From Deltaproteobacteria bacterium (GTDB lineage Bacteria > Myxococcota_A > UBA9042), in NCBI GenBank assembly GCA_016218865.1, contig JACRCU010000423.1, forward strand, positions 1-32,095: a stretch of DNA of 32,095 nucleotides. The letters run 5' to 3'. The notes beneath the pieces were generated by a model. That model ran no database searches, was not told the DNA's origin, and worked only from the letters and a program-made list of their open reading frames with translations. The position numbers and the translations under genes were made by a program. Each line of letters begins with the position of its first letter. Within the stretch, counting starts at the first letter, position 1. Shown in pieces: positions 6,257-25,026 of the stretch.

Positions 6257-9631
<3,375 letters not shown>

Positions 9632-11105: not shown

Positions 11106-13493
11106 CTAGCTGGCCGGATCGTCGGCGTACTGCCGCACCACCCGGCCGGCGTCTTTGTACTCGCGCTCGGCGGCCCGCGCCAAGTGGACGTAGCTGATGG
11201 GCTTGGTCTCTTCGGCCGCCCACACCGCCGCGCGAATCACGGCGTTCTGGATCTGACCGCCGGTCAGCTCGTAATCGGCGGCCAGGTCTTTGAATTTCAG
11301 GTCCAGCTCGCGCGGCGCATCGGCCGGGATCATCACCGACCACAGGCGCTCGCGCTCGGGCAGCTCGGGCGCCGGGAAGCTGGGCTTGAAGCGGATGCGG
11401 CGCAAAAAGGCGTTGTCGATGCTCTCGGGGTTGTTGGTGGTCAGGATCACCACACCGTCGAAGTCCTCGAGCCGCTGCAGCAAGTAGTTGACTTCCAAGT
11501 TGGCGTAGCGGTCCACCGAGCTCTGCACGTCGGTGCGCTTGGCGAACAGCGAGTCCGCTTCGTCGAAAAGCAGCGCAATACCCGCGTCTTGGCTGGCATC
11601 GAACAGCTTGGAGAGGCGCTCCTCGGTCTCGCCGATGTACTTGCTCACCACGCTCGCCAGGTCCACGCGGAACAGCTCCAGGCCCAGGTCGCGCGCCACC
11701 AGGCCGGCACACAGCGTCTTGCCGGTACCGGAAGGTCCCGAAAACATGGCGGTCAGCGCCCGGCCGTAGCCCATGGTGCGGCCGTAGCCCTGCTCGTCCA
11801 GCACGAAGCCGGCGTGCTTGCCGAAGCGCACCATCTCGCGCAGCGTCTCGCGGGTATCGTCGGGCAAGATGGTGTTTTCCCAGCGGCCGCGCACGTTGAT
11901 GCGGGTGGCCAGGCCCGACAGGCGCGAGCTGGCCACGTCGCGCACCGCCCGCTCCACGTCGCTCAGGTGCACCACCGCCGACATGCCGCGCTGGCGCGAC
12001 ACCGCCTGGGCCAGGTTGATGGTCAGGTCGATCTCGTCGACGCCGAACTTGAAAACGCTGACGGTCTGCACGGTATCGTCGACGTCGCGGTCGGCCATCT
12101 TGCCGGTCAGGCGCTGGCGCCACAGGTCGCGGCGCTCGTCGATGCTGGGCGGCGCGGTGGGCAGCTCCAGGCAGCCGAGCTCGCGGAGCAGGGCCAAGTG
12201 CGCGCGCGGCGACAGCTTTTGCTCTTCGGTCCGCCGCGAGGCCCGCGCATGGAAGAACATCGTCGTCGTCTCGGGCTGCAGCAGCTGCACCAGCGCGGCC
12301 AGCCGCTCGGTGCCGTGGTCGCCGGCATCCATCGCCTGGACTTCGCTGAAGAACACCCCGGCGCGCACCAGCCGGGCCCGGCCCAAGACCTGCCCCACCT
12401 GCTCCAGATTGCCGTTCGCCAGCAGCACGTCCAGCCGCACTTCGAGCAGACCTTCGCCAAAGGTATCCAGAGCTTCGCGGGCGATACCCAGGGCGCCGGC
12501 GCGCTCGGGACCCAGCACCAGGAAGCGGCGGCCGCTGCGGAAGCCGCGCGTAAGGGCCTCGCGCAGACTGGGCGCCATCGGGGTGGCCGAGCGCTCGCTC
12601 TGGTCGTCTTCGCCGTGCGGGTGGTAGAGCAGGCCGCGCACGTCGTCCAAGCGGATCGGCAGGCCCAGCAAGTGCCCGGGCACAAAGGCGCCGGCCCGGT
12701 AGCGCAGGCCCGTGGCCAGCTCGCCCGACGCGGTCACGAGGCCATAGCGCACCAGCGTGGCCGTCGCCGCCAGCGCCGCGAGCACCGCCTTGCCGCGCAC
12801 CGCAAAGGGGTCGGCAGCGTGCTGCAAGAAGTCCTCGGGCCAGGCCACCCGTGCAGTGTCGCGCCACAACGCCCGGTAGAGCCAAAGGAATTCGGGAGCG
12901 ATCTCGGGCGCCAGCAGCAGCCACAGCAGGTCGCACTCCAGATCGTTCAGGCCGAACACCACCCGCAGCTCGTCGAAGCGCTGGGCGGCCTCGCTGGCCG
13001 GGGTCAGGTCGTCGTAGCGCACCGCCAGACGCGCCTCCATGCGATCGACGAAGGCCACCTTCTCGGGGTCCAGGGCCTCGCCGCGCAGGCAGCGCATGCA
13101 CGTGGTATCCAGCGTTTGCGCCGCGCCGGCCGGCAGCGGATTGCGCGCGGCGTCGTCGGTCGAGCGGTCCCAGGGCCGCAGCACCACCAGGTAGCGCTGC
13201 AGCATGGCGCGCACCCGGTCCAGGTAGGGCTGCAGATCGGCGCCCGCGCCCGCCAACCATGGCCGATCGGGCACCGGTGCGCTGGTTTCGGCGGGGCCGC
13301 CCAGCTCGGCGCGGATCAGGTTGCGCAGCAGATCGACCTGCAGCTCGCTCAGCTCGTCGGTCGACAGATCGGGGTCGATGCGCGCGTCGGCCAAGAGCGA
13401 CTTGGCGCGCGAACGCGAGATGCCCGGCAGGTAGGTAAGGGCCGTTTCGACCGGGCGATTGGGCGGAAGTCCTGAAATACCGGTGCGTGCCAT
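11106..13493 (-). CDS. AAA+ ATPase, CDC48-like single-module type
   Basis: 795 residues, cytoplasmic. The C-terminal third is a complete AAA+ module: Walker A GPSGTGKT (586-593), Walker B LLFDEAD (Asp644, Glu645), sensor-1 TTNN (about 685-688), arginine-finger candidates in FLRRIRF, and a helical lid. The N-terminal 550 residues are helical, with a helix-hairpin-helix-like start (LPGISRSRAKSLL) and no second intact P-loop; a Rossmann-like stretch (GRRFLVLGPERAGALG) at about residue 320 may be a degenerate AAA domain. The sequence resembles the ATPases attached to extracellular contractile injection systems (Afp15-type) and other large bacterial CDC48-like ATPases. No sheath, tube or baseplate genes are present here. 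The ATG at 13493 has only a weak ribosome binding site. The gene is divergent from the SpoIID-like gene and leads the operon with the PEGA protein. Confidence 0.88.
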   Translation of the reverse strand: MARTGISGLPPNRPVETALTYLPGISRSRAKSLLADARIDPDLSTDELSELQVDLLRNLIRAELGGPAETSAPVPDRPWLAGAGADLQPYLDRVRAMLQRYLVVLRPWDRSTDDAARNPLPAGAAQTLDTTCMRCLRGEALDPEKVAFVDRMEARLAVRYDDLTPASEAAQRFDELRVVFGLNDLECDLLWLLLAPEIAPEFLWLYRALWRDTARVAWPEDFLQHAADPFAVRGKAVLAALAATATLVRYGLVTASGELATGLRYRAGAFVPGHLLGLPIRLDDVRGLLYHPHGEDDQSERSATPMAPSLREALTRGFRSGRRFLVLGPERAGALGIAREALDTFGEGLLEVRLDVLLANGNLEQVGQVLGRARLVRAGVFFSEVQAMDAGDHGTERLAALVQLLQPETTTMFFHARASRRTEEQKLSPRAHLALLRELGCLELPTAPPSIDERRDLWRQRLTGKMADRDVDDTVQTVSVFKFGVDEIDLTINLAQAVSRQRGMSAVVHLSDVERAVRDVASSRLSGLATRINVRGRWENTILPDDTRETLREMVRFGKHAGFVLDEQGYGRTMGYGRALTAMFSGPSGTGKTLCAGLVARDLGLELFRVDLASVVSKYIGETEERLSKLFDASQDAGIALLFDEADSLFAKRTDVQSSVDRYANLEVNYLLQRLEDFDGVVILTTNNPESIDNAFLRRIRFKPSFPAPELPERERLWSVMIPADAPRELDLKFKDLAADYELTGGQIQNAVIRAAVWAAEETKPISYVHLARAAEREYKDAGRVVRQYADDPAS

Positions 13494-15329: not shown

Positions 15330-18300
15330 CTATTTGCAGTCGGCGCAGGTCGAACCCATGCACGCGGAGCCGGCGACGCCCGTGCCCGCCGCGTTGCAGC
15401 AGTCGCCGTAGGACTTGCAGTAGGTGTCGCAGTAGCAGCCGGTGCCGCTGCCCCCGCAGTGGGTGTCGCAGTAGTGGCTCGACGCGCAGTCGGCCGAGCA
15501 ATTGCTTGGGGTCTCGCCAGACTCGCACTTGCCGTTGCCGCACACCGGCGAATTCCAGCAGTCGGCCCAGCAGTTGCTCGGGGTCTCGCCGGACTCGCAC
15601 TTGCCGTTGCCGCACTGTTGGCTCGGGCAGTACAAGGAGTAGTCGGGGCAGCAATCCCCCGCCGCGACGCACCCAGTGTCGCACAAGCAGGTGCCGGTGC
15701 TGCCGGCGCCGCCGCACTTGCCGGCGCACGACCCGGCTTGGGCTTTGCAGGTTACGCCGTCGCCGGTGTAGCCGGTGAGGCACTTGCAGGTAAAGGACCC
15801 GGCGGTATTGGTGCAGGTCGCGTAGGCCGAGCAGTTGTCGCTGCCCAGGCTGCATTCGTCGACGTCGCTGCAGGTCTTGCCGTTGCCCGTCCAGCCGGGC
15901 TGACAGGTGCAGGCGTAGCTGCCGGCGGTGTTGCCGCACGAGGCGTGGCTGTCGCACTGGGCGGTGCCGGCTTTGCACTCGTCGATGTCGGTGCAGCTGC
16001 TGCCGGTGCCCGTCCAGCCCGGCTTGCAGGTGCAGGTGTAGGCGCCGGCCGTGTTGCTGCAGTCGGCGTGGGTATCGCAAGTGGCTGTGCCGGCTGTACA
16101 TTCGTCGATATCGCTGCAGGTCTGGCCGTTGCCGGTCCAGCCCGGCTTGCACGCGCAAACGCGGCTGCCCACCGTGTTGGTGCACTTGGCCTGCGGCGAG
16201 CAGTCGCCGTTGTTGCTGGCGCACTCGTCGATGTCGCTGCAGCTGGCGCCGTCGCCGGCAAAGCCCTTGGCGCACTGGCAGGCGGGAGCGAGCGTGTCGT
16301 TGTTCAGGCAGAGCGCGTTCTTGTCGCAGGGGTTGAAGACCGCGCACACATCGATGCCCGGCGACTGCAGCGCCACCGGGCCGCCCACGGCGGTCACCGG
16401 CGCAAGACCGTCGCTGCAGGTGACTTGGACGATCAGCTGATCGCCCACCTGCAAGGGCTTGCCGTCGGCGCGCTTGGTCTTGAGCAGGTCCAGCGACGTG
16501 GCCGTTGCCCCGCCAACCAGCGCAATTCCGCCAACTTGCCAAGTGCTCTGGCACACTACGGCCTCGCCGTCGGCGTCGAGCGTAGCCGCCCCCGGGAGCT
16601 GTGCTGCGATCGAGCCGACGAGGTCGGCCTTGGTCGGCACCACCACCGCAAAGGCCGGCGGCGGCGCGTTGGCGACGACCAGTTGCGCCTGGACGGGCGG
16701 CCCGCTGGCATAGCCATCGCTCGCGACCACACTGACCTGCACGACTTGACCCTTTTTTGCCGTCAGAGCCGGCAGTTGCGGGCCGGTGCCGGCGGGCTGA
16801 CCCCCGACACTCCATTGGTACTTGTAGGTGATCTGCTGGCCGGCGCCGACATCGGCGTCCGTGGCCGGGGCGGCCAGTTCGACTGCAATCACCTGGGTGG
16901 TGTCCGGCGCGGCCGGCTTGAGCGCGATCTGCGGCGCCCCTGGCGGCAGGTTGCCGTAGACCGGCACCGGCCACTGGCCCAGACTCGCCCCTTTGCCGCT
17001 GCGCAGGGTCAGGTTCCACAGGTGCCAACCCGGCGTCGTCTCTACGAAACTGACCGACTGGGCGCCGGCCTGCAAGCTGGCGTGGCGGGTGTCGTCGGGA
17101 TCCGCCAGCACCCACAGTTGCGGCGGGCTGTCGCTGTAGCCCTTGCCCACCGACAGCGTCGCCACCAGGGGCAGCGCCTGGCCCACGCTGACCACGTGAG
17201 TGGCCGTCTGGCTCAGGTCCACGCTGGCGCACACCAGGCCGTCGCCAAAGCTGCCCGGGGCGCACGCGCAGGCGGGCTGCAGCGACAGGTTCTCGGTGCA
17301 CAGGGCCGTGGCCGCACAGGGGCGCAGGGGGCTGGCGCACACCGCGTCGCCGCCGACCACTGCAATGGTCACCGCGCCGCTGGCACTGGTCAGCGCGCCG
17401 TCGCTCGCGGTAGCGGTAGCGGTGAGCACGTCGCCCTGCTTGGCCCACGGTGCCAGGTTGGCCACGACGGCGCTGGTGCCGCTGGCACCGGGTACGGGAC
17501 TGCCGTTGACTTGCCACTGCACCGTCACCTCCACGGGGTCGCCGTCGGCGTCGACCGCGGGTTGCGGCGCCAGCGCCACTTCGGCCGTGCCCAACAGCGA
17601 AACCTGTGGATTCTTGGCGGCGAGCACGGGCTTGGCCGGCGCGGCGTTGACGAAGGTCACCGATGCCACCGCCGCCACGCCGATGTCCAGACCGTCGCTG
17701 GGGGTCGCATGGACCTGCCACATCTCGCCTTTCTTGGCGACCTTCGCCGGCAGCGTCGCGCCGGAGAGTAGGGGGACTCCGGTGGCCTTCTGCCACACGA
17801 ACGTCCAGGTCAGCGCCGCGCCGTCCGCCGCATCCGGGTCGGTCACGCCGCCCACCACGCTGGCGGTCACGCTGTCCAAGGTCGTCGGCGCGGGGTTCGA
17901 CAGGGCCAGTTCGGCCAGGCCCTTGGGCGGCTGGTTGACCGTCGCGGGGTAGTCCTGCTGCCAGATCGGCTTGCCGCCGGCCGCCACCGCCACCCGCAGC
18001 GTGTGCGATCCCGCCGGCTGCACAGTGGCCACAAGGCTGGCCAGGCCGGTCGGCGGGGTGGTCTGGGCGGTCGCCAGGGTGCTGCCGCTGGCCAGGTCGA
18101 CCACGCTGAGCAGGATCTCTTTGCCCTGCACGACGTTGGAGTCACCCACGCTGACCGGCAGTTCGCCGGCCGCGGGCAAGTGCAAGGTGGCGCCCGCCGC
18201 CAGATCGGCCAGCGGTCCGCCCAGCTTCAGGCACGTGTGCCCGTCGCCCACATAGCCCTTCTGGCAGAAGCACTTGGGCTCGGTGCTGTCGCTCTCGACG

Positions 18301-19505
18301 CAGTCGGCGTGGTCGCCACACGGCTGCAGCAGCGGGCACAGCTTGGCGGGCCCGACCTGCCACGACACCGGCAGCGACGTGGCCGTGCCGAGGCCGTCGC
18401 TGCTCGTCGCGCGAACCTGAATCAAACTGCCCACCACAATCGGCTTTTTCAGGAGCAGGGCCAGCTCGATCAGGCTGTGCTTGCTGGCCACCGCGCCAGA
18501 GACCGTTTCGCCGTCGACCTGCCACTGCAAGGTGGTGGTGAGCGGGTCGCCGTCGGGGTCGCTGGCCGGCTGGTCGACCGCCACCGCGGCTACGCTGCTC
18601 AGGTCCAGCGGTGCGCTGCCGGTCGCTGCCAGCACCGCGGGCTGCGGCGGGGCATTGCCGATCTGCACCTGGGCGGTGGCCGGCAAGCTGGACGAGTGGC
18701 CGTCGCTCACCAGCAGCGTTACCGCCACCGTCTGGCCCTTCTTGGCCTGACCGGCGGGCAGCACCGGCCCAGTGGCGGCCGCGGCCACACCGTTGATGTG
18801 CCATTGCTGGGCCTGCTGAAGGGCCTGGTTCTCGGGATCGCTCGCCGGCTTGAGGATTTTGACAGCGATGGCATCCAGAACGGTGGGCGCCAGCGGCTCC
18901 AGGCCAATCTCGGGCTGGCTGGGGCGCCCGTCCACCTGCAGCTCCAGCGTCAGCGTGGGGCTGTCCGCCGCCGCGGCCGTCGAGTGTGCGGCCAGCTGCA
19001 CCTGCCACGGCCCCGGCGCTTCGGGCACGGTGACGGCAAAATGGAGGCTGCTACTGCCGGGTTGCAGGACCTGGTTCTGCGACCACGTGCCGCTGCCGTC
19101 CCACAGCCGCAGGGACCACGCCGCCGCGGCGCTCACCTGCTGTACCTGCACCGTCAGGTCCAGGGTCGTGGCCGGATACACGGTGGTGCCCGCCGCCGGA
19201 CTGGTTACGGCGATTTGCGGCCACAGCGGGCCTTGCCCGTCTGCCGCACCGTCGCCGACCGGGGTATCCAGCGCGCCGCCATTGTCGTTTGGGTCGCCGC
19301 CGTCGGCCGCCGAACCGCAGGCCGCCAGCGCCACCAGCCCCGCGCCCAGGACCAGCCGCAGCCAAGGGCGTACACTGCGGTTCGCCGGCGAACCACAATC
19401 AGGATGATCGCAAGATAGGATGCGGTAAAGGATATTTGCGAATTCGGTTCCACGAAAAACGCAGCGTTGCCGGGAATGGGCGGGGCTGGTGGTAGGTGTA
19501 GCCAT
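15330..19505 (-). CDS. Giant lipoprotein with Ig/cadherin-like, EGF-like and somatomedin-B-like modules
   Basis: About 1391 residues from ATG 19505, which has GAGGA upstream; an in-frame ATG at 19550 overlaps the preceding stop as TGATG and is an alternative. The lipoprotein signal LVLGAGLVALAAC puts the lipid Cys at residue 63, an unusually long n-region encoded by AT-rich DNA. Residues of about 90-1080 are repeated beta-sandwich modules with the recurring text ASDPDGDPL...WQVDG (Ig/cadherin-like), interrupted by EGF-like units (CGDHADCVESDST..., CAATALCTEN...). About residues 1085-1255 carry five tandem EGF-like units, four of calcium-binding DIDEC/DVDEC type. Two somatomedin-B-like modules follow (first at about 1257-1291: CLCDTGCVAAGDCC; second: CYCDTYCKSYGDCC), separated by two CGNGKCESGETPSNC motifs. 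It is probably a surface adhesion protein. It is the third gene of the operon that starts at 24477. Confidence 0.87.
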   Translation of the reverse strand: MATPTTSPAHSRQRCVFRGTEFANILYRILSCDHPDCGSPANRSVRPWLRLVLGAGLVALAACGSAADGGDPNDNGGALDTPVGDGAADGQGPLWPQIAVTSPAAGTTVYPATTLDLTVQVQQVSAAAAWSLRLWDGSGTWSQNQVLQPGSSSLHFAVTVPEAPGPWQVQLAAHSTAAAADSPTLTLELQVDGRPSQPEIGLEPLAPTVLDAIAVKILKPASDPENQALQQAQQWHINGVAAAATGPVLPAGQAKKGQTVAVTLLVSDGHSSSLPATAQVQIGNAPPQPAVLAATGSAPLDLSSVAAVAVDQPASDPDGDPLTTTLQWQVDGETVSGAVASKHSLIELALLLKKPIVVGSLIQVRATSSDGLGTATSLPVSWQVGPAKLCPLLQPCGDHADCVESDSTEPKCFCQKGYVGDGHTCLKLGGPLADLAAGATLHLPAAGELPVSVGDSNVVQGKEILLSVVDLASGSTLATAQTTPPTGLASLVATVQPAGSHTLRVAVAAGGKPIWQQDYPATVNQPPKGLAELALSNPAPTTLDSVTASVVGGVTDPDAADGAALTWTFVWQKATGVPLLSGATLPAKVAKKGEMWQVHATPSDGLDIGVAAVASVTFVNAAPAKPVLAAKNPQVSLLGTAEVALAPQPAVDADGDPVEVTVQWQVNGSPVPGASGTSAVVANLAPWAKQGDVLTATATASDGALTSASGAVTIAVVGGDAVCASPLRPCAATALCTENLSLQPACACAPGSFGDGLVCASVDLSQTATHVVSVGQALPLVATLSVGKGYSDSPPQLWVLADPDDTRHASLQAGAQSVSFVETTPGWHLWNLTLRSGKGASLGQWPVPVYGNLPPGAPQIALKPAAPDTTQVIAVELAAPATDADVGAGQQITYKYQWSVGGQPAGTGPQLPALTAKKGQVVQVSVVASDGYASGPPVQAQLVVANAPPPAFAVVVPTKADLVGSIAAQLPGAATLDADGEAVVCQSTWQVGGIALVGGATATSLDLLKTKRADGKPLQVGDQLIVQVTCSDGLAPVTAVGGPVALQSPGIDVCAVFNPCDKNALCLNNDTLAPACQCAKGFAGDGASCSDIDECASNNGDCSPQAKCTNTVGSRVCACKPGWTGNGQTCSDIDECTAGTATCDTHADCSNTAGAYTCTCKPGWTGTGSSCTDIDECKAGTAQCDSHASCGNTAGSYACTCQPGWTGNGKTCSDVDECSLGSDNCSAYATCTNTAGSFTCKCLTGYTGDGVTCKAQAGSCAGKCGGAGSTGTCLCDTGCVAAGDCCPDYSLYCPSQQCGNGKCESGETPSNCWADCWNSPVCGNGKCESGETPSNCSADCASSHYCDTHCGGSGTGCYCDTYCKSYGDCCNAAGTGVAGSACMGSTCADCK
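15486..15543 (-). repeat. 58-bp direct repeat, copy A
   Basis: It encodes CGNGKCESGETPSNCSADC. It matches 15558-15615 with about four mismatches over 58 bases, and the copies start 72 bases (24 codons) apart, so the frame is kept. This points to a fairly recent in-frame tandem duplication within the lipoprotein gene. Confidence 0.85.
15558..15615 (-). repeat. 58-bp direct repeat, copy B
   Basis: It encodes CGNGKCESGETPSNCWADC and is the partner of the copy at 15486-15543. The two lie between the two somatomedin-B-like modules. Confidence 0.85.
15742..16350 (-). repeat. Coding array of five EGF-like units
   Basis: Tandem Cys-rich units within the lipoprotein gene. Four begin D(I/V)DEC, then C-x5-C, NTxGSxxCxC and GWTGNGxTC, the classic calcium-binding EGF layout. 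A first, shorter unit without DIDEC (CDKNALCLNNDTLAPACQC) precedes them. Confidence 0.85.
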
Positions 19506-19549
19506 GGTGGTCCTCGTCGGCGCGGGCGGCGGCCCGTTCGGGGTGCGCA

Positions 19550-20140
19550 TCAGTGGCGCCCAGGCGCGGGCGGCGTCGCCAGCGGGATGGCCCGGTGCAC
19601 GGGCAGGCCGGTCGGCAGGCGCGGGCTCGCCTGGCGCGGCGGATCGTCGACCCTGGGCGCGGCCCGGCCAAAGCGCTGCACACTGCGGGCGTGCACACCG
19701 CCGTCTGCCGCCTGCCAATCCAACGCTACCGTCAAATCACCAGGTTGTGTGCGGTCGGCGCGCACCACGAACTGCAGCACGGCTTCGCCGGAGCGCGGCC
19801 GCTGGATTGGCAAGTTGCGCGGCTGCTGCAGCACTACCAGCCCCGGCGGCGCCTGCAGCGTCATGCGCAGGGCGCCCACGCCGGGCGACTGCCACACCAC
19901 CCGCAGGCGCAAGGTGGTCGCGCGGCCGACGGGCAGCGGCCGATCGGTCAACCACCGGGCCAGCAGCGGCGCGGTCACGGGCGTGGCGTGAGCGGGCAAG
20001 GCCGCCAACCATGCCAGCGCGATGGTCAGCCAAGCTCCCAGCACCCACCAAGGGCGCGCCGGACCCGGCCCGCATGGCCGCCCACGGCCCGACGAATGCA
20101 GCGAGCCGGCTCCGCCCGGTTCCAGAGAGGTTGGTGTCAT
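19550..20140 (-). CDS. Small exported beta-rich protein, coupled to metalloprotease gene
   Basis: 196 residues. The ATG at 20140 overlaps the stop of the upstream gene as ATGA, and GGGAG sits six bases upstream, so translation is probably coupled. A Gly/Pro-rich 30-residue lead is followed by a signal sequence (WWVLGAWLTIALAWLAALPAHA, cleavage before TPV). The remainder reads as alternating strands: ATTLRLRVVWQSPG, ALRMTLQAPPGLVVLQQP, VLQFVVRADRTQPGDLTVALDW. This resembles a single Ig-like or BatD-like beta sandwich. It ends in a Pro/Arg-rich tail. There are no Cys in the mature part, in contrast with its two neighbours. I do not recognise a family. Placement between two giant surface lipoprotein genes suggests a periplasmic accessory or assembly role, which is inference. 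Confidence 0.78.
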   Translation of the reverse strand: MTPTSLEPGGAGSLHSSGRGRPCGPGPARPWWVLGAWLTIALAWLAALPAHATPVTAPLLARWLTDRPLPVGRATTLRLRVVWQSPGVGALRMTLQAPPGLVVLQQPRNLPIQRPRSGEAVLQFVVRADRTQPGDLTVALDWQAADGGVHARSVQRFGRAAPRVDDPPRQASPRLPTGLPVHRAIPLATPPAPGRH

Positions 20141-23100
20141 GGGCCGCTCCCAACTTTGCAGAGTGGTTGCCCGGTGTCGTAAGGCCACAGGCCTACCGTC
20201 GCCTGCACCAGGTTCGCCGCAAAACCCTTGCACAGCAGCGCATCCAGGAAGTCGGCGACCATCGGCACGGGCTCCTTGGTGTCGACCACATTGACGAAGC
20301 TGCCCGGGTACCACGTCGTCCAGGTGTGCCGCGTATAGCCGCGCGCGTAGGGCGCCTTGGTCATTCGCGGCGAGCTCAGGGCGCTCCACAGCGGCGCCAG
20401 CTCGGGCGTGCTCAGGCCGCCGCTGCCGACCTTGACCAGCTCCCACAGCCAGGCGGCGACCAAGTTCTCGTCCATCTTTTGCAGGATGCCGCCGCTGGCG
20501 GTCGCCGGCACGAACAGATCGCCAAAGCTGGTGGCGTGGCTGGCCAGGTTCATCCAGAAGGACGAGCCTTCCTGGACGTCGAAGTACAGTGGATCGTTGC
20601 GCATGGCCGAGGAGTGCCAGGTGGCGAATCCCTCGGACCAGGCCTGGCCCGGGAAGGTGGGCACGCCGATGAAGTGGGTGCCGCCCTCGCCCGGCGACGC
20701 GCCCCAGCTCTGCATGACCCAGTGCCCCAGCTCGTGATCGGTGACGGCGATCGCCCACTGCTCCTCGCCCGTGCTTTCCCACGGCAGCCAGATGCTGCTG
20801 GCGATCGGCGTGCCGCCGATGTGGGCGGTGAGCCCATCCCAGAAGCAGGCGCCGCAGGTCCAGGTGACGTTGGGCCGCATCCAAATCGCCAGCGGCATGC
20901 CGGGCTTGCCGAAGGTCTTGGCGTGCGCCGCCGCCGCCTTCTGCACCGCGTCGAAGGCGTAGGCCGCGGCGCTGGCTTGCGCGACCGTCAGCAGCCAGTC
21001 GCCGCCGTCCTTCCACTGGGAGGCGGGCAAAGTCCAGGCAAACACACTGGGATCGCCCCAGGCGACCGACTCGGGATCCCTCATCCCCGGCGACAGATCC
21101 GGCTCGGCCACGGTGAAGTCGACGGTGGCGCCGTGGTTCGAGAGGCGCACCAAGAGCACCGCAATCTCGTCGCCCAGCTGCGGCTGGGCCGGCACGGGCA
21201 GGGCCACATGGCCGCTCGCATCGGTGATGGCGCTGCCAAGGGTCAGCGAGCCGCCGTTGCCGTCGGGACGCCGGCTGACGACCAGCGCACCCGCCAGCGG
21301 CGCGGCGGATGGCGTGGAACTCCAGCCCGTCTTGCTCGCGTTGACCACTGTGTACTGGAACCGCCAGGTCATGTTCAGGGTAGCGGTGGCCAGCCCGCTG
21401 CACACGGCGCCGCTGTCGTGATCCACGCAGCCCGGGCACGCAGACTTCACCGGCACGCCGTCGCTGCTGCAGTCGATGCGGGTGTCGGCGGTCTTTGGGT
21501 CGCAGGTGCTGGATCCGGGCGCGCAGGTGCCGCTGGCGACGCACTGGGCCTTGCCAGCCACGACCTTGCAGACGGCGCCGTTGTCGCACGGTGTGAACAC
21601 CAGCTCGGGCGTGCCGCCGCTGGGCTTGAAGCACGCGGCCACCGTCTTGCCGTCGCCCAGGCAGATGCCGGCCTCGGGGATGCCCTGGCAGGCGTCGGCG
21701 ATGCACGCATCCTGGTTGGCGTCGCAGCCCAGGGCACAGGTCTGGGCCACCGCACCCAGATTGCCACAACTGTCGAACCAGCAGAGGTTTTGCCCGCAAC
21801 AGCCCTTGCTGGCCTGGGGCGTGCATTGGCTCTGGCAGGCCAGCGGATACTGGCCGCTGGGGTCGGCGCCGCCGTCGGTGCACGCGTAGTACTTGTTGAT
21901 GGGGTCCCAGCCACAGGCCTTGTTGGTGCACTGGAACGTGTAGATTGTATTATTTTCGCAGTATTTCAGCGTGTTGTTGTCGCAGCAGCCTTGGTAGCTG
22001 ACACCGGGGCACTGGCTCGGCACGCAGGTCCCGCCGGCCGTGCAGGTCGAGCCGGCCGCGCAGCCGCCGCAGCTGCCGCCGCAGCCGTCGGAGCCGCACG
22101 CTTTGCCGGTGCAGTCCGGGGTACAGCAGTTGCCGCTGGCCAGGCACACGCCGGAAGTGCCGCACTTGCCGCCCGCCAGGGGCACGTTCTGGCAGCCGCC
22201 GCCGCTGGAGCAAACGTCGGTGGTGCAGGCATTGCTGTCGTCGCAGTTGACCGCCTTGCCGCCCTTGCAGCTGCCGTCCAGGCAGGCGTCGCTCTGGGTG
22301 CAGGGGTTGCCGTCGCTGCACGAGCCCGCCGCCGGCGTGAACACGCAGCCCTTGGCTGGGTCGCAGCTGTCGCTGGTGCAGGGGTTGCCGTCGCCGCAGA
22401 GCAGGCCCGTGGCGCTGACGCAGGCGCCCGCGGCGCAGGACTCGCCGGTGGTGCAGGCGTCGCCGTCGTCGCAAGGTCCGGGCTGTGGGGCATGGTTGCA
22501 GCCGCCGCCGATGCTGCAGTTGTCCGCGGTGCACACGTTCTGGTCGTCGCACACGCTGGGGTCGACTTGCGAGGTGCAGCCGGTCGAGGGCTTGCAAGTG
22601 TCGATGGTGCAAGGATTGCCGTCGTTGCAGGTCACCGCTGGGCCGCTCTGGCACTGGTTGGCGGCGCAGACGTCGCTGCCGGTGCAGGCGTTGCCGTCGT
22701 CGCACGGGCCCGCGGCGGCGCTGTGCTGGCAACCCAGGCTTGCGCTGCAACTGTCGGCGGTGCAAGGGTTGCCGTCGCCGCAGTCCAGCTTGCCGGTGCC
22801 TGCGCAGGTGCCGGCCTGGCAGGTGTCGCCGGTGGTGCACGGATTGCTGTCGCTGCAGGCGGCGCCGCTGGCCGGCGTGTGGATGCAGCCGTCGGTCAGC
22901 GAACATGCGTCGGTGCTGCACGGATCGCCGTCGCTGCACAGGTTGGCCGCGTCCGGCAGGGCTGCGTGGCTGCAGCCGCTGGCTGGGTCGCAGCTGTCGG
23001 CGGTGCAGGCCAGCCCGTCGCTGCAGTCGGTGGCGGCGCCGCTCCCGCACGCGCCGAGCTTGCACACCTCGCCGGTGGTGCACGGGTTGCCGTCGCTGCA

Positions 23101-24477
23101 CGGGCCGCTGAGCCACGCGTGTTGGCAGCCGACCGCCGCGTTGCAGGTGTCGGCTGTGCAGGTGGCGCCGTCGCTGCAGTCCACCGCCGGACCGGCCGCG
23201 CAGGCGCCGCTGGCGCAGGCGTCGCCCTGGGTGCACGCGTCGCCGTCGCTGCACGGGCCGGCAAAGGGGCTGTTCATGCACCCGACGATGGCGTCGCAGC
23301 TATCGGCCGTGCACGGATTCTCGTCGCCGCACACGGTGGCCGCGCCGGGCAGGCACAGGCCCGCGCTGCAGAGGTCGCCCAGCGTGCAGGCGTTGCCGTC
23401 GCTGCAGGGGCCGCCGGTCGGTGCATGCGCGCAACCCAGGTCGGTGTCGCAGCTATCTTGTGTGCATGGGTTGCCGTCCTGGCAGTCGACCGCCACGCCG
23501 CCGCCGCATTGGCCGCCCGCGCAGGCCGTGCCGGCGGTGCACGCGTCCCCGTCGTCGCAGGGGCCCTGAACGGCGGCGTGGTGGCAGCCGCTGGCCGCAT
23601 CGCAGCTGTCGGCCGTGCACGGGTTGCTGTCGCCGCAGGGCAATGTGGCACCGCCGACGCAGGCGCCCGCGCTGCAGGTGTCGGCCATGGTGCACACGTC
23701 GTCGTCGCTGCACGGACCGGTCGATGGCGCGTGCTCGCAGCCCGTGGGGCCGCAAGCATCGGTGGTGCAGGCCTGGCCGTCGTCGCAGTCGACCTTCTGG
23801 CCCGCGCACTGCCCCGCGGTGCAGGTGTCGCCGTTGGTGCACGGGTCGCCGTCGCTGCACGTGCCGCTGCCGGCCGTGTGGCTGCAGCCGTTCTTGCTGT
23901 CGCAGCTGTCCGCGGTGCAGGTCAGGCCGTCGTCGCAGCTGACGAGCAGGCCGCCGCTGCAGGCGCCGCCAGCACAGGCCTCGCCCAGAGTGCACGCGTC
24001 GCCGTCGCTGCAGGGGCCGCCGGTGGCGCTGTGGCCGCAAGTGCCGGCCTGGCAGGTGTCGCTGGTGCAGGGGTTCTGGTCGTCGCATGTCCGCGGGGGG
24101 CCGCTGGTGCAGTGGCCACCTTGGCAGAGGTCGGGATCGCTGCAGCCGTCGCCGTCGCTGCAGGTCGCAGCGTTGGCCAAGTGCGTGCAGCCGCTGGCCT
24201 TGTCGCAATCGTCGCTGGTGCAGGGGTTGCCGTCGTCGCAGCTGGTCGCGGCCACCGCTTGGCACACGTGGTCCACGCAGCTGCGGGTGCAGGGGTTGCC
24301 GCAGTCGGCGGGTACCTGGCAGCGCTTGCTGGCCTGTGCCGAACTGCCGTCGCCGCACCCGCCGAGCAGGGCTGTGACCAGGGCCGCGAGCAGCCAGCCG
24401 ACCAGCGTCGCCCCTGGGAGCCGAGCGACCACCCAATGCGTGGGTGGCTCGCCAGCGTGCCGAGCTACAAGGGCCAT
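20137..24477 (-). CDS. Giant lipoprotein: CTDC-repeat stalk fused to HExxH metalloprotease
   Basis: 1446 residues. I chose ATG 24477 for its strong GAGGGAGG ribosome binding site and because it opens a lipoprotein signal (WLLAALVTALLGGC, Cys41); the frame is open upstream to 24798 without further sense. About residues 79-760 contain roughly 27 half-units of the form CxDGNPCTxDSCDxxxGCxH alternating with CSDGDxCTxGDxCxxGxC, matching the Dictyostelium CTDC repeat. A CTPDCTGKACGSDGCGGSCGGC module and more Cys-rich segments follow to about residue 1020. The C-terminal region holds a zinc-protease signature HELGH (His1248, Glu1249, His1252) and a third-ligand candidate Glu1282 in SEGFATWHS, an arrangement typical of gluzincins. 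This suggests an active surface-anchored peptidase held away from the membrane by a long disulfide-rich stalk; the substrate is unknown. It leads a three-gene operon. Confidence 0.9.
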   Translation of the reverse strand: MALVARHAGEPPTHWVVARLPGATLVGWLLAALVTALLGGCGDGSSAQASKRCQVPADCGNPCTRSCVDHVCQAVAATSCDDGNPCTSDDCDKASGCTHLANAATCSDGDGCSDPDLCQGGHCTSGPPRTCDDQNPCTSDTCQAGTCGHSATGGPCSDGDACTLGEACAGGACSGGLLVSCDDGLTCTADSCDSKNGCSHTAGSGTCSDGDPCTNGDTCTAGQCAGQKVDCDDGQACTTDACGPTGCEHAPSTGPCSDDDVCTMADTCSAGACVGGATLPCGDSNPCTADSCDAASGCHHAAVQGPCDDGDACTAGTACAGGQCGGGVAVDCQDGNPCTQDSCDTDLGCAHAPTGGPCSDGNACTLGDLCSAGLCLPGAATVCGDENPCTADSCDAIVGCMNSPFAGPCSDGDACTQGDACASGACAAGPAVDCSDGATCTADTCNAAVGCQHAWLSGPCSDGNPCTTGEVCKLGACGSGAATDCSDGLACTADSCDPASGCSHAALPDAANLCSDGDPCSTDACSLTDGCIHTPASGAACSDSNPCTTGDTCQAGTCAGTGKLDCGDGNPCTADSCSASLGCQHSAAAGPCDDGNACTGSDVCAANQCQSGPAVTCNDGNPCTIDTCKPSTGCTSQVDPSVCDDQNVCTADNCSIGGGCNHAPQPGPCDDGDACTTGESCAAGACVSATGLLCGDGNPCTSDSCDPAKGCVFTPAAGSCSDGNPCTQSDACLDGSCKGGKAVNCDDSNACTTDVCSSGGGCQNVPLAGGKCGTSGVCLASGNCCTPDCTGKACGSDGCGGSCGGCAAGSTCTAGGTCVPSQCPGVSYQGCCDNNTLKYCENNTIYTFQCTNKACGWDPINKYYACTDGGADPSGQYPLACQSQCTPQASKGCCGQNLCWFDSCGNLGAVAQTCALGCDANQDACIADACQGIPEAGICLGDGKTVAACFKPSGGTPELVFTPCDNGAVCKVVAGKAQCVASGTCAPGSSTCDPKTADTRIDCSSDGVPVKSACPGCVDHDSGAVCSGLATATLNMTWRFQYTVVNASKTGWSSTPSAAPLAGALVVSRRPDGNGGSLTLGSAITDASGHVALPVPAQPQLGDEIAVLLVRLSNHGATVDFTVAEPDLSPGMRDPESVAWGDPSVFAWTLPASQWKDGGDWLLTVAQASAAAYAFDAVQKAAAAHAKTFGKPGMPLAIWMRPNVTWTCGACFWDGLTAHIGGTPIASSIWLPWESTGEEQWAIAVTDHELGHWVMQSWGASPGEGGTHFIGVPTFPGQAWSEGFATWHSSAMRNDPLYFDVQEGSSFWMNLASHATSFGDLFVPATASGGILQKMDENLVAAWLWELVKVGSGGLSTPELAPLWSALSSPRMTKAPYARGYTRHTWTTWYPGSFVNVVDTKEPVPMVADFLDALLCKGFAANLVQATVGLWPYDTGQPLCKVGSGP
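22190..24242 (-). repeat. Coding array of about 27 CTDC-type half-repeats
   Basis: Each half-unit is about 20-25 residues with four Cys. Odd and even units alternate between a CTADSCDxxxGCxH form and a CTxGDxCxxGxC form, so the real period is a pair of about 45 residues. Units are similar but not identical at DNA level, with gtcgccgtcgctgca-type blocks recurring on the plus strand. Confidence 0.87.
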
Positions 24478-25026
24478 CGAAGCCTCCCTCTCCGGGTGCC
24501 CGGTACCGACATGGCAGCCAAAACCCTCGGCCCGGCCTGCGGCAATCCTGCATCTGTCACTGTGCGCCTGCATGGGCATGCGGTCAAGCCCAACCGGCAC
24601 GCTCGGCCTGGATGTAGGTTCGGGGTGGGACAAAGGAATCCGCCAGAGCGATGGCGACTTTGTCCACACGGTGCGGCCGGCCGCGCTGCCGGCCTCCAGG
24701 AGCCTGTCGGGACAATACGATCTACCTTGTGCCCTTGAGCCAGTACCGCATGATCTTACTGCAATCCGCCCGGCTCCCAGCCGGTTTCGTTTGTCCAACT
24801 GGCCGAAAATCGCCCGAGATAAATATGTGTGAGTTCATCTAGTTGTCGCCGCGCACGCCGCGGTGCCAGAATTGTGCCGGGATTATCCCGACGCGCTCCC
24901 AGCTTCCGCCGTTGCCACCCACCCTAGCAAGTCTGCCCCAGCCAAACGCAGTGCGTCGCGTTGCGGGACCGCCGGCCTCGTGGTACGCCACACCGGGTGC
25001 CTGCTTTTTGGGCCAAGGGGGACGGG
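24478..25026. other. 549-bp divergent intergenic region
   Basis: This lies between the metalloprotease gene (-) and an exported-protein gene (+), and should hold promoters for both. It is AT-richer at 24715-24845 (for example GAGATAAATATGTGTGAG) than the surrounding DNA. A 13-base palindrome CGGGATTATCCCG lies at 24878-24890. The minus-strand frame stays open across 24478-24798, but the encoded text has no recognisable protein character. No RNA gene is evident. Confidence 0.5.
24878..24890. promoter_or_regulatory. 13-bp palindrome, candidate operator
   Basis: CGGGATTATCCCG is symmetric around a central T and sits about 137 bases before the start at 25027, in the divergent intergenic region. 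It is a possible regulator site; no regulator gene is nearby. Confidence 0.25.

Follow-up and report, generated by a model that had tools for sequence, protein, structure and literature searches.

The CTDC repeat (PF00526) is shared by the dictyostelid matrix and signal proteins EcmA, EcmB, PdiA, PsiA, PsiF and PsiN. These proteins are secreted, some dictyostelid CTDC proteins combine the repeat with PA14, and to our knowledge none carries a lipid anchor or a peptidase. CTDC proteins of slime moulds are matrix proteins, and Dictyostelium discoideum has 11 CTDC-only and three CTDC/PA14 proteins (PMC4931340). The nearest described analogue of the protein reported here is a myxobacterial envelope protein, TraA of Myxococcus xanthus, composed of PA14, TIGR04201 Cys repeats and MYXO-CTERM. 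The Cys-rich repeats of TraA were proposed to form a rigid surface stalk for the PA14 domain, and their resemblance to PF00526 was already noted (PMC3325183).

We analysed a window of 32,095 nucleotides (contig JACRCU010000423.1 of an uncultured Deltaproteobacteria bacterium belonging to the Myxococcota), in which a CTDC array is predicted to stand between a lipid anchor and a zinc protease of an unnamed family. This protein shows no TIGR04201 match, and its architecture is the reverse of that of TraA, which has an N-terminal payload and a C-terminal anchor. The protease part resembles the M4 (thermolysin, aureolysin) and M36 (fungalysin) families in having an HExxH motif and a downstream Glu on a second helix. 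A conserved catalytic-His motif is a further feature of M4 and M36.

Results

The gene and its predicted anchor

The CTDC-peptidase ORF (20137-24477, minus strand) encodes 1446 amino acids from an ATG at 24477, with a ribosome-binding-like AGGGAGG a few bases 5' of it. Its GC content by codon position is 0.60/0.64/0.91, compared with 0.88/0.66/0.60 for an overlapping plus-strand ORF (19489-24738), which is therefore considered an antisense artefact. All features described below are on the minus strand. Residues 1–41 (24355..24477) form a signal peptide ending in a lipobox, LLGGC (37–41), called by reading the sequence; a bacterial lipoprotein modified at Cys41 is thus predicted, in line with the lipid anchor proposed in the initial annotation. 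The whole protein contains 157 Cys, an even 156 once the predicted lipidated Cys41 is subtracted. PF00526 is its sole Pfam match, and the full-length protein matched no NCBIfam family at E<=1.

The CTDC array

The PF00526 match reaches 167.4 bits (E 4.8e-50, 15 scoring stretches), where the curated cut-off is 27 bits. A scan for the Cys pattern delineates 27 half-repeats, the first starting at residue 80 and the last at residue 745, within residues 80–769 (22171..24240). Each unit has four Cys, which makes 108 in 690 residues, so that the initial estimate of about 27 units with over 100 Cys was accurate. Its suggestion of an odd/even alternation with a two-unit period also holds: the distances between cysteines define two classes, 6-5-6-9 (O) and 6-6-5-8 (E), with minor deviations, which follow each other in the order OEOEOEOEOEOEOEOEOOEOEOOEOEO. 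Classes alternate in 24 of the 26 steps, a value reached by none of 20,000 shuffles, and in 820 of the 883 neighbouring steps (~93%) of 79 other CTDC ORFs of the same genome. Given the alternation, here and genome-wide, an eight-Cys double repeat of ~51 residues is probably the natural structural unit, and the 24-residue Pfam model would cut it in half; paired in this way, the array amounts to 13.5 double repeats.

Units of the same type share on average 63% DNA identity (maximum 76%), and the best DNA matches of most units lie in other proteins. These observations rule out a recent tandem duplication and indicate that the array is old. Searching the PDB with the stalk sequence matched no solved structure. 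Eight half-repeats were modelled with self-shifted repeat rows as input, and the model (pLDDT 44, pTM 0.17) was discarded as a guide to shape because of its low confidence. We infer that the cysteines are paired in disulfides and that the array is rod-shaped.

As a lipobox does not give the orientation of the protein, the array might be a periplasmic spacer from which the peptidase acts on envelope proteins. This arrangement is quite improbable, as 690 residues make a long array for the periplasm, and display of a domain at the surface by a Cys-rich stalk has a myxobacterial precedent (PMC3325183). We favour an outward-facing protein.

The predicted catalytic domain

Between the array and the catalytic domain lie a CTPDCTGKxCGxDGCGGSCGGC module (residues 784–818, 22024..22128; identified by sequence), also present in the relatives L002, L010, L025 and L027, and further Cys-rich modules (residues 819–1019, 21421..22023). 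The portion of these modules from residue ~929 is common to relatives that lack CTDC arrays. Next comes a predicted transthyretin/CarboxypepD_reg-like beta sandwich (residues ~1030–1125, 21103..21390), delimited by the strands of the model and suggested by transthyretin-like Foldseek matches and by weak Pfam matches in relatives.

The gluzincin-like catalytic domain occupies residues ~1140–1446 (20140..21060). The HELGH motif (residues 1248–1252, 20722..20736) and Glu1282 (20632..20634, in AWSEG) are located where the initial annotation had placed them. In an alignment of 47 sequences H1248, E1249, G1251, H1252, H1268 (20674..20676), S1281, E1282 and E1337 (20467..20469) are invariant. The model of residues 925–1446 is confident (mean pLDDT 92.2, pTM 0.90); HELGH lies on a helix (1243–1258) and Glu1282 on a second one (1276–1293), while Glu1337 is the first residue of a third (1337–1352). 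Aureolysin (E 8.8e-5) and thermolysin (4e-4) are the best fold matches in the PDB by Foldseek, with loose superpositions (rmsd 8–9 Å). They are followed by transthyretin-like folds, which presumably reflect the sandwich preceding the catalytic domain. The structural comparison called for in the initial annotation supports its gluzincin-like site, and the refuting outcome that it named, a fold with the HELGH residues away from Glu1282, was not encountered. A conserved HExxH and a C-terminal Glu on two helices are the signature of clan MA(E) gluzincins, and the model is consistent with a putative zinc site formed by His1248, His1252 and Glu1282, with Glu1249 as the predicted general base.

The assignment to a known family is less straightforward. 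Profile comparison by hhalign gives 88.6% with M36, over 49 columns only, in which HExxH and Glu line up with their M36 counterparts. The values for an M36-like group of the same lineage and for a local M4 set are 80.3% and 5%. The HExxH and Glu region is aligned in all three comparisons, though weakly with M4. No Pfam or NCBIfam family matches the catalytic domain at cut-off, and the M4/M36 catalytic-His motif is missing from the profile alignments. We therefore treat the domain as a separate, unnamed family that is clan-MA-like (gluzincin-like). Assignment to M36 was rejected, as the 88.6% spans so few columns and PF02128 (M36) has no match in the window, in the 47 relatives or in the genome of the window (0 matches). 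Assignment to M4 was also rejected: in addition to the low profile score and the missing Pfam match and catalytic-His motif, AWSEGFAT stands in place of NExxSD, SEG replacing the M4/M36 motif, with the Glu 30 residues past the second His. H1268 and E1337 are extra invariants compared with M4 and M36.

The missing catalytic-His motif and the two invariant residues to which no role is assigned, E1337 and H1268, would also fit a domain that binds metal for recognition without catalysis. We hold this to be very unlikely, since the predicted general base, Glu1249, is invariant in 47/47 relatives, which would be surprising in an inactive enzyme. The domain probably binds zinc and is catalytically active.

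Two other groups of sequences were noted. A different, weakly M36-like group (L186, L187, L189, L190 and L192–L194), with HEYTHAMVGTTRL...MNEGFADYF, comes mostly from genomes of the same family as that of the window. Remote relatives of the peptidase that keep HExGH...GGxH...WSEG (L097–L110) have records named Nitrospirae, Nitrospinota, Elusimicrobia and Methanoperedens.

The partner gene

The gene directly downstream (19550..20140) encodes a predicted secreted protein of 196 amino acids, including an N-terminal signal-like stretch, and its start overlaps the peptidase stop as ATGA. The partner protein has no Pfam match and its sequence reads as beta-rich. In most relatives for which the flank is available, this family is found directly 3' of the peptidase or fused to it; the fusion is to the peptidase C-terminus in L012, L053, L056, L073, L079, L082 and L084. 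After the active site, this linkage gives the best hint of function, and the partner may bind the peptidase.

The wider neighbours of the window show essentially no synteny with those of the peptidase relatives. Just 3' of the partner gene, 15330-19718 encodes a large protein of secreted type that matches EGF_3 (seven times), cEGF, EGF_CA and Somatomedin_B (once). Further away are a 795-amino-acid AAA ATPase with a winged-helix variant domain (11106-13493) and a 1124-amino-acid protein with eight Cu-binding_MopE motifs (6257-9631).

Distribution of the peptidase and of the array

Relatives of the peptidase were found in 69 of the 379 genomes sampled from the phylum, and also in named Corallococcus, Myxococcus and Pyxidicoccus. 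The closest ones, from the same genus included, lack long arrays, one (G045) having five units. The distance from lipobox to HExxH is 1207 residues here, compared with a median of 338 in the 26 relatives with a recognised lipobox. As same-genus relatives do without it, the array looks like an optional spacer for the peptidase.

The array could instead be the working part, its acidic Asp loops mediating Ca2+-dependent adhesion or matrix building, while the role of the peptidase would be to trim or shed the array or to process matrix proteins nearby. The stalk is indeed strongly acidic (92 D/E for 10 K/R in 690 residues), its units start with C-x-D-G-[ND], the slime-mould proteins with this repeat belong to the matrix (PMC4931340), and the window also encodes a large EGF-repeat protein close by. 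Nevertheless, the peptidase and its partner are conserved across many genomes with no array on the peptidase, which makes this explanation unlikely. The Ca2+ or redox control suggested in the initial annotation is speculative, the acidic composition being what speaks for it.

CTDC matches are present in 220 of the 379 sampled genomes (58%) and in none of 14 control genomes, which contradicts the view, taken in the initial annotation, that the repeat is known mainly from slime moulds. At first look, each genome of the same family has about 560–2,970 candidate units. The genome of the window has at least 80 CTDC ORFs, compared with the 11 + 3 proteins of D. discoideum (PMC4931340); some of the 79 besides the CTDC-peptidase ORF may be fragments at contig ends. 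A lipobox (strict pattern) is found in 47 of the 60 CTDC ORFs of this genome with a complete 5' end. MYXO-CTERM was rejected as the main anchoring route genome-wide, with only six genomic matches. The C-terminal payloads of CTDC ORFs include RCC1, LamG, FGE-sulfatase, CotH, lamin-tail (LTD), Lcl_C, fibrinogen-C-like/COLFI and discoidin-like domains. Two CTDC proteins (L122 and L163) have short, possibly cytochrome-like C-terminal domains with CxxCH motifs (CAGCH, CGGCH); this part of L122 has no Pfam match. No description of a bacterial CTDC expansion was found in the collection of papers searched.

Discussion

The explanation that we favour, with a probability of roughly 60%, is that of an anchored zinc endopeptidase on a CTDC spacer with a coupled secreted partner. 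The protein would be an envelope lipoprotein, probably anchored in the outer membrane and facing outwards, whose C-terminal domain, of an unnamed gluzincin-like family, would coordinate zinc and cleave proteins. The disulfide-rich array of 27 half-repeats would keep this domain off the membrane, and the translationally coupled partner would bind or complete the peptidase. In the same lineage, the array would be an interchangeable module placed under many payloads.

A broader proposal, which we make only tentatively, is that of a surface-display platform: dozens of lipid-anchored CTDC disulfide rods of varied length, with a two-phase, 51-residue period, might present different enzyme or binding domains. 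The present protein would then carry a two-component gluzincin, with a reach set by the number of repeats.

The unnamed protease family and its conserved partner are present in cultivable Corallococcus, Myxococcus and Pyxidicoccus, which makes them directly testable. As for CTDC repeats, their abundance in genomes of this family turns them from a slime-mould curiosity into a major bacterial building block.
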